DNA from: Clostridiales bacterium
GTDB lineage: Bacteria > Bacillota > Clostridia > Christensenellales > Borkfalkiaceae
DNA: 64,000 nt
Direction: 5' to 3'
NCBI GenBank assembly: GCA_015069495.1
Contig: SVIN01000001.1
Span: 1 to 64,000 of the forward strand
Below the pieces are notes generated by a model. That model was not told where the DNA came from. It made no database searches and was given only the letters and a program-made list of their open reading frames with translations. The translations under genes were made by a program, and so were the position numbers. Positions 38,727-60,032 of the stretch are shown here, one piece after another; position 1 is the stretch's first letter, and the number at the start of each line of letters is the position of its first letter.

Positions 38727-38932
38727 TACGATATACTCTCTTCGTTCGCACGATATAATTACATTACGATATAGGTTCGCCTTGCGCCCTACGATATGAT
38801 ATAAATCCTTTACGTTTTAGCAACCACGCTTCTGCGAGGTTTGCTAAAACATATCGTATCGCAGATATATCGTACGTATAACGTATATCGTAAATCCAAC
38901 GGATTTATATCGCTAAAAGACTTTGTCTTTTA
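38727..38932. repeat. Palindrome-rich intergenic cluster with ACGATAT/ATATCGT linkers
   Basis: Repeated acgatat and inverted atatcgt; hairpins gttttagcaaccacgcttctgcgaggtttgctaaaac, aaatccaacggattt, aaaagactttgtctttt. Confidence 0.75.
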
Positions 38933-43330: not shown

Positions 43331-43403
43331 AAGCACAGCATTCATAAACCAAGGCGGACGGTCGCATATCGACCGCCCGCCCATTTAAAATCTCAGCCAC
43401 AAC

Positions 43404-43484
43404 GCAACGCTTGCGTTGCAATTCACGTGCCATAGGCGCAATTCACGGCAGAGCCAATTCACGACAGCTTTGCTGTCAATTCAC
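43404..43484 (-). repeat. AATTCAC-linked hairpin array A (4 linkers)
   Basis: AATTCAC at 43420, 43440, 43456, 43478; intervening gcaacgcttgcgttgc, gtgccataggcgc, ggcagagcc, gacagctttgctgtc are self-complementary. Confidence 0.9.
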
Positions 43485-48610: not shown

Positions 48611-48694
48611 GTGAATTGCCCTACGGGCGTGAATTGAAAATTGAATTTTCGTGAATTGTACTATGCGTACATGAATTGCAACGCTTTGCGTTGC
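48611..48694 (+). repeat. GTGAATT-linked hairpin array B (4 linkers, one variant)
   Basis: GTGAATT at 48611, 48629, 48651 and ATGAATT at 48671; cores gccctacgggc, gaaaattgaattttc, gtactatgcgtac, gcaacgctttgcgttgc. Confidence 0.9.
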
Positions 48695-50389: not shown

Positions 50390-50470
50390 GTGAATTAACG
50401 GCTCAGCCGTCGTGAATTGCGCTTTTGCGCGTGAATTGGTTTCACCGTGAATTGCAACGCTCTGCGTTGC
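50390..50470 (+). repeat. GTGAATT-linked hairpin array C, forward half (4 linkers)
   Basis: GTGAATT at 50390, 50412, 50431, 50447; cores acggctcagccgt, gcgcttttgcgc, ggtttcacc, gcaacgctctgcgttgc. Confidence 0.88.
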
Positions 50471-50494
50471 GTTATGGCAAATTTTAACAACAAC

Positions 50495-50582
50495 GACAGT
50501 ACAACTGTCATTTTACGAAAACAACGTTTTCAATTCACAAACTTTTGGTTCCATTCACGCAAAGCACTGCTTTGCATTTCAC
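50495..50582 (-). repeat. AATTCAC-linked hairpin array C, inverted decayed half
   Basis: gacagtacaactgtc, gaaaacaacgttttc + AATTCAC (50532), ATTCAC, gcaaagcactgctttgc, ATTTCAC. Confidence 0.7.
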
Positions 50583-59578: not shown

Positions 59579-59911
59579 CAATCCGCAAACCAGAGGTTTA
59601 CAATTCACGCCAAACATTTGCAATTCACGACAGTTTAACCGTCAATTCACGACAGCATAGCTGTCAATATCTAATTTTCTCAATCCGCAAACCAAAGGTT
59701 TGCAATTCACGAAAACGAAGTTTTCAATTCACGCAAAGCATTTGCAATTCACGCGCAAGCAGCGCAATTCACGACAGCGTAGCTGTCAATATCTAATTTT
59801 CTCAATCCGCAAACCAAAGGTTTGCAATTCACGAAAACGAAGTTTTCAATTCACGCAAAGCATTTGCAATTCACGACGGTTTAACCGTCAATTCACGACA
59901 GCGTAGCTGTC
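59579..59911 (-). repeat. AATTCAC-linked hairpin array D: three tandem super-units, 11 exact linkers
   Basis: Super-units start at 59579, 59681 and 59803 (caatccgcaaacca.aggttt.c); AATTCAC at 59602, 59622, 59644, 59704, 59726, 59746, 59766, 59826, 59848, 59868, 59890; cores are palindromes. Confidence 0.95.
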
Positions 59912-59922
59912 AAAACGGCGGA

Positions 59923-60026
59923 GATGCAAGCAGTTCAAGGCGCATCGAGCACCCCGCAGGGAGCGTACAAGAGGTACGTGACCAAGGGGCGCGGAAATGC
60001 AACGCCGAAATGCGAAGTATATACGC
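59923..60026 (+). repeat. Structured dispersed repeat R5, copy 2
   Basis: gatgcaagcagttcaaggcgcatcgagcaccccgcagggagcgtacaagaggtacgtg... aligns with 48801-48903. Confidence 0.75.
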
Positions 60027-60032
60027 CGTTTT

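Follow-up and report, generated by a model that had tools for sequence, protein, structure and literature searches.

The intervening sequences (IVSs) of 23S rRNA that carry an S23p ORF are considered selfish and possibly mobile (PMC4990558). The elements described here resemble them in having, between complementary ends that form a long stem, a four-helix-bundle gene of the S23/IVP family (PF05635/TIGR02436), and in being placed in sense within a transcribed unit. They differ in that they occupy the intergenic DNA of protein operons rather than rRNA, in that their stem is split into 7-bp steps by side hairpins, and in that gene-less copies are numerous in each genome. We know of no catalytic activity for the S23/IVP family. 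Avd, the accessory protein of diversity-generating retroelements, is a nucleic-acid-binding four-helix bundle that is thought to be S23-related; unlike at Avd loci, neither a reverse transcriptase nor a template repeat was noted beside the four-helix-bundle genes here, in what was an unsystematic look.

Heptanucleotide repeats have been described in several bacteria, including TAACTGA in Beggiatoaceae (PMC4679880) and GGGAATC in Xanthomonas (PMC4692102). Neither paper mentions four-helix-bundle or S23 genes; one author has suggested that a repeat-binding protein might itself be the mobile element (PMC4679880). The family described here is like these repeats, and like the STRRs of cyanobacteria, in its 7-nt unit, its intergenic position, its high copy number and its frequent occurrence as inverted pairs, but its heptamers (AATTCAC) are spaced by hairpins of 9-18 nt rather than arranged head-to-tail. 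Our search of an open-access literature collection returned no paper tying heptamer or hairpin arrays to S23 or four-helix-bundle genes.

Intergenic palindromes that occur in many copies and in inverted pairs, and that spread non-autonomously, are also characteristic of REP, BIME and REPIN sequences (PMC3116915, PMC8266576). However, REPs keep the sequence of their palindrome and are associated with a GTAG-type tag and a Y1 transposase, whereas the hairpins on AATTCAC linkers vary. BOX elements of Streptococcus pneumoniae are likewise modular, and the copy number of their inner modules varies while the module sequence is conserved; in the AATTCAC family it is only the linker that is conserved, and the modules vary.

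A tandem hairpin array between hisS and hslU

The DNA analysed here (the window) is a 64-kb stretch of the genome of a rumen/gut bacterium (G000; 1.74 Mb in 50 contigs). AATTCAC occurs 36 times in the window as compared to 14.2 expected occurrences, a count that was reached in none of 100 shuffled sequences. Between hisS and hslU lies an array of hairpins joined by this heptamer, which we refer to as array D (Table 1). The original prediction, made from the letters of the window, described 11 exact heptamers in three tandem units, and we recovered all 11 (59602, 59622, 59644, 59704, 59726, 59746, 59766, 59826, 59848, 59868 and 59890) in three units of ~122 bp each, every one of which starts with CAATCC. 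Units 2 and 3 were correctly described as near-identical: they share 99% identity over 111 nt, apart from one exchanged core. In total, array D has 14 short self-complementary cores, each with G as its first base and C as its last. That description is accurate. The linker spacing of 20 or 22 bp applies inside the units and is 60 bp at the unit borders; the cores are palindromic, and unit 1 includes imperfect ones (GCAAACCAGAGGTTTAC, GCCAAACATTTGC and GACAGTTTAACCGTC).

No Rfam family reached its gathering score anywhere in the window, and assignment to REP/RAYT or CRISPR sequences is also unsupported, in agreement with the initial statement that no named family was known to have this design. 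The comparison with CRISPR that accompanied that statement found no support, the constant part being 7 nt long and the variable parts palindromic, whereas CRISPR arrays combine constant repeats of >20 bp with unique, non-palindromic spacers and cas genes. Array D is not inside a 23S rRNA gene, and the other elements described below likewise lie between protein genes. The S23/IVP gene is absent from array D and present in complete relatives with the same linker; similarly, two-armed elements have complementary closing ends, whereas array D consists of three copies of a single 4- or 5-hairpin arm and lacks the left one.

Immediately 3′ of array D (59912-60032) there is a 121-bp MITE-like repeat, AAAACGGCGGAGATG...ATATACGCCGTTTT, which has many copies in the genus, some of them tandem.

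Table 1 Hairpin elements and associated gene in the window
Feature	Position	Strand	Basis
Four-helix-bundle S23/IVP gene, 114 aa, PF05635	38370..38714	-	profile match and protein tree
Second hairpin array, linker ACGATAT/ATATCGY, 4 + 4 linkers, just upstream of the 38370..38714 gene	38728..38913	.	
One-armed element: GCCACAAC start, 4 hairpins, 4 AATTCAC linkers	43404..43484	+	sequence
One-armed AATTCAC-family element: 4 hairpins, one linker degenerate (ATGAATT)	48611..48694	-	sequence
Two-armed element with AT-rich centre: GTGAATT arm of 4 hairpins, second arm of ~4 on AATTCAC-like linkers	50390..50582	.	
Array D unit 1: CAATCC and 4 hairpins on 3 AATTCAC linkers	59579..59665	+	sequence
Array D unit 2: 5 hairpins on 4 AATTCAC linkers	59681..59787	+	sequence
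Array D unit 3: 5 hairpins on 4 AATTCAC linkers	59803..59911	+	sequence comparison

A dispersed family in the genome and its relatives

The pattern CAATTCACG-N7..30-CAATTCACG had 91 matches in G000 and a reversed-pattern control had none. This search, extended to related MAGs as the original prediction had advised, makes array D one of dozens of dispersed copies in its own genome. The same design had been overlooked at three other places in the window (43404-43484, 48611-48694 and 50390-50582), as well as at many genomic sites. Among 36 further genomes surveyed, AATTCAC-linked hairpins were found in 13 of the same genus and in one (G051) from another family of the same order. A scan for alternative linkers in the array-free relatives had a sole yield, an ATTTCAC variant in G031.

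Other repeats accompany the family at individual loci. In G000, a short repeat that begins CAAGCTGAGCTTGGAGGCAGTAAGGTGTG and ends near GCATTCAC lies beside or inside many AATTCAC elements (L031, L032, L035, L039, L045 and L047). A GC-rich hairpin, GGGCGGTC...GACCGCCCGC, replaces the left arm before one-armed elements at 43360-43419 of the window and at L037, L038 and L043. In G031, hairpins linked by ATTTCAC or ATTTCAT are found within an inverted repeat, GTTAAGTTTTA...TAAAACTTAAC (L312 and L358), and also at the hisS-hslU site.

Complete elements have mirror-image arms and variable palindromic cores

A complete element consists, from 5′ to 3′, of about four GTGAATT-hairpin repeats, a centre of the form GTTRTGG...AT-rich...CCACAAC, and about four hairpin-AATTCAC repeats. 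This makes the unit larger than the one in the original prediction. The commonest count of exact linkers among 42 complete two-arm elements was 4+4 (17 elements), and most others had 4+3, 3+4 or 3+3, in many cases through mutation of one linker. The two arms of any one element carry different hairpins. Hairpins recur among the elements of one species and differ between species, with the plan unchanged.

We extracted the cores between exact linkers, blind to palindromy, and obtained 304 distinct sequences of 9 to >18 nt across the family, with AATTCAC as the only constant part. The mean outer perfect stem of these cores was 4.70 bp, as compared to 0.41 bp for composition-shuffled cores, for which the maximum in 500 trials was 0.58; shuffling with the first G and last C fixed gave 1.35. 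The cores are, as had been proposed, exchangeable modules that are linked by a constant heptamer and are variable in sequence yet self-complementary. On the AATTCAC strand, GNA accounts for 50 of 146 triloops and GNNA for at least 39 of 74 tetraloops, with loop closure mostly by C-G.

Template switching at quasi-palindromes turns imperfect palindromes into perfect ones with no need for selection, and such a mutation bias might by itself maintain palindromic cores in hairpins that have no function. However, it would leave unexplained the constant heptamer, the mirror symmetry of the arms, the loop bias, the complement of ~4+4 hairpins and the link to PF05635, and we consider this explanation hardly credible.

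When the 42 complete elements were folded in silico, 82% (RNA model) or 85% (DNA model) of left-linker bases were paired with right linkers. Because the arms are inverted copies of each other, this pairing does not constitute independent support for folding in the cell. In the predicted fold, 7-bp stems form a ladder and are joined at four-way junctions from which the hairpins project sideways. Many sets of different short hairpins on a single linker have evolved, and they are natural counterparts of nucleic-acid junctions made by design. A module found at many loci (for example, L236, L239 and L241), TGAGCG-NNN-GCGAA, is not a plain Watson-Crick palindrome, and could be closed by tandem sheared G-A pairs.

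Elements are insertions relative to closely related genomes

The gap between hisS and hslU is 509 bp in the window's genome and ~38-94 bp, without an array, in most relatives, among them G026, which at 83% identity is the closest that was found. Four relatives (G016, G024, G031 and G011) have other insertions in this gap, that in G016 including an ATTTCAC-linked array. A role of array D specific to hslU or hisS, which the original prediction had listed among candidate functions, is unlikely, given that the array is missing there from nearly all relatives. Similarly, a stop codon precedes the two-armed element at 50390-50582 and the ribosome-binding site of the next gene follows it; in five relatives no more than a short gap separates the two. 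Two elements of G022 (L236 and L243) are 97.5% identical over 244 bp and have different surroundings. Some sites have an element in several species, but with different hairpins or in the opposite orientation. No target-site duplication was seen when element borders were inspected by eye.

The patchy presence of elements among close relatives, together with recent near-identical copies that have differing flanks, favours mobility. These same observations weigh against the arrays being immobile sites for protein binding or cruciform extrusion that serve chromosome organisation. The high copy number and the ~20-22 bp linker spacing within array D are consistent with such a role, but helical phasing is not kept across the family since core length, and with it spacing, varies from 9 to >18 nt. 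We consider a role in chromosome organisation very improbable.

A further alternative is that the elements are vertically kept RNA elements of operons, such as mRNA stabilisers, processing sites or attenuators, whose palindromy is selected at the level of RNA. Their intergenic position within operons and strong predicted RNA structure would suit this explanation, as would changes that preserve pairing on both sides of stems at orthologous sites (for example, L041 and L265). However, orthologous sites are mostly empty, or are occupied by different hairpins or even by an inverted element. The loops and stems are also informative in this respect: cGNAg and cGNNAg are notably stable loops in DNA, whereas RNA favours GNRA, and the third base of the GNNA tetraloops is a purine about as often as a pyrimidine. 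Moreover, G-T mismatches are not in excess over A-C mismatches in the stems (15 and 8, respectively; p=0.21), such that no RNA strand is indicated. We regard vertically kept RNA elements as distinctly unlikely.

S23/IVP genes lie between the arms of some elements

In G000 (contig C40), and at the orthologous place in G006, AATTCAC arms enclose a gene of ~117 codons instead of a short centre. The product of the G000 gene matches the profile of the 23S rRNA intervening-sequence protein, PF05635, with E=9e-27 and that of the four helix bundle protein, TIGR02436, with E=8e-31, and a sequence search identified one solved relative, 2rld. When PF05635 loci throughout the genus were inspected for flanking arrays, a gene between AATTCAC arms was found at this one orthologous locus in four genomes (G000, G006, G028 and G030), and a gene with AATTCAT arms was found at a different locus in G011. 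Arms flanking other PF05635 genes are built on different linkers: ATATCGC in G000 (in the window), G004 and G017, ACTTCAC in G006, ATTTCAT in G013 and G016, and further linkers elsewhere. In G000, G019 and G021 there are also PF05635 genes with TTCACT-type heptamers that are free of hairpins. In a first-pass count, PF05635 loci had 5.6 hairpins near the gene and 1.6 at a distance of 1 kb (p=0.0003). Where PF05635 genes lie between co-directional neighbours, 38 are in sense and 4 are antisense (p=6e-8).

The linker follows the protein. On a tree of 17 proteins, some of which share a locus, the seven linker types require six changes, which is the minimum possible. Protein clade and linker thus match perfectly across the genus, with shared ancestry at the same locus accounting for part of the match.

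Since the window has a second protein lineage, with the linker ATATCGY, we searched for a second hairpin family, which was to be expected if linkers belong to protein lineages. The pattern ATATCGY-N9..22-ATATCGY had 86 matches in G000, as compared to none for the control. Nearly all of its cores are palindromic, with a mean stem of 3.9 bp versus 0.38 bp after shuffling. The gene of this lineage in the window adjoins its array, rather than being enclosed by it (Table 1).

Arrays and PF05635 genes showed no clear co-occurrence across the sampled genomes, which are incomplete. One genome that is 93% complete (G035) has 64 matches to the AATTCAC pattern and neither a PF05635 nor a TIGR02436 gene, and the single PF05635-type gene of G051 has GAGAAAT-like arms, unlike the AATTCAC arrays of that genome. 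These observations count against our reading of the family, as do the missing left arm of array D, the position of the ATATCGY gene beside its array, the absence of target-site duplications on inspection by eye and the lack of a known catalytic activity. Mobilisation of the gene-less elements by the four-helix-bundle protein is something that we infer.

Candidate mobilizing proteins

The original prediction had included a BIME-like REP element among its guesses. The part of this guess that is supported is that array D is an interspersed mobile repeat; an association with a REP-type Y1 transposase is not supported, and complete elements are tied to the S23/IVP family instead. The distribution of PF01797, which 15 of the 41 genus genomes have, does not track the arrays, G035 has no PF01797 match, and the Y1 gene of G000 itself is IS200-like, with no adjoining AATTCAC array.

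A different enzyme, such as a DDE transposase, a serine or tyrosine recombinase, or an HUH protein, might move the repeats in trans, in which case the four-helix-bundle gene would be cargo or a passenger. The persistence of arrays in genomes that lack a PF05635 match would be accounted for in this way, the inverted arms have the symmetry of a MITE, and the four-helix-bundle family has no known catalytic domain. On the other hand, the Y1 results argue against an enzyme of that type, and the lack of visible target-site duplications also counts against this explanation. Furthermore, passenger status would not explain why PF05635 genes have inverted heptamer arrays in several phyla (see below), or why the linker follows the protein clade. 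We consider mobilisation by another enzyme rather unlikely.

We conclude that array D is probably a tandem, one-armed and gene-less copy from a non-autonomous companion family of S23/IVP-gene elements. A selfish element of the IVS type is the most economical reading of the family, one in which a small gene for a nucleic-acid-binding protein lies between complementary arrays and gene-less derivatives can multiply and outlast the gene. We envisage that an element would insert in sense within transcribed intergenic DNA, where its GTGAATT left linkers would pair with its AATTCAC right linkers, in the transcript or in single-stranded DNA, to give the ladder with side hairpins. Each heptamer array would be the binding target of the four-helix-bundle protein whose lineage it matches, and spread of the element would resemble the presumed spread of 23S rRNA IVSs. 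Array D may have arisen by loss of one arm followed by tandem duplication.

Heptamer arrays flank PF05635 genes in other phyla

PF05635 genes on plasmids of Bacteroidota, Spirochaetota and Cyanobacteriota lie between head-to-tail heptamer arrays. On a Nostoc flagelliforme plasmid, for example, the gene is flanked by TTCGTAA x4 and TTACGAA x4, and among the cyanobacteria, plasmids of Nostoc, Planktothrix, Dolichospermum and Euhalothece all have PF05635 genes between heptamer arrays. We scored 54 PF05635 loci from genus, phylum and plasmid records for k-mers present in at least three copies upstream and, reverse-complemented, in at least three copies downstream. Such inverted k-mers surrounded the gene at 21 of the 54 loci, as compared to 1 in the distal flanks. 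Arrays with a period of 7 were found near the gene at 17 loci and in the distal flanks at 3, whereas other periods from 2 to 15 were each found at about one locus, except that 14, itself a multiple of 7, was found at 12 loci and 11 at 3.

S23-gene mobile elements with mirror-image heptamer arrays appear to be widespread and little-noticed. We tentatively propose, as a possibility that we rate below our reading of array D, that they form a new class of mobile element that lacks a recognised transposase. In this class one small four-helix-bundle protein would recognize a lineage-specific heptamer in inverted arrays, which may be plain or interrupted by orthogonal hairpins and which would form a ladder of four-way junctions, and would move both itself and large populations of gene-less copies. 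If true, this class would explain the heptanucleotide repeats, long unaccounted for, of cyanobacteria and many other bacteria, and S23-type rRNA IVSs would join it; three separate puzzles, namely the function of S23/four-helix-bundle proteins, the origin of heptanucleotide repeats and the hairpin arrays of Clostridia, would become one. The occurrence of one heptamer per protein lineage would amount to a testable protein-to-repeat code, and the elements would offer a candidate means of spreading through genomes that involves no known recombinase.

A search of viral contigs with the four-helix-bundle protein as query gave no match. Two unannotated human-gut contigs that are labelled as phage (L404 and L405) have a four-helix-bundle gene beside hairpin arrays with the linkers GTGATAT and TGAAAT. 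At three plasmid loci (L398, L401 and L403), four-helix-bundle elements are situated amid restriction or defence genes: hsdS/hsdR, a helicase with a methyltransferase, and DrmD with PglX.
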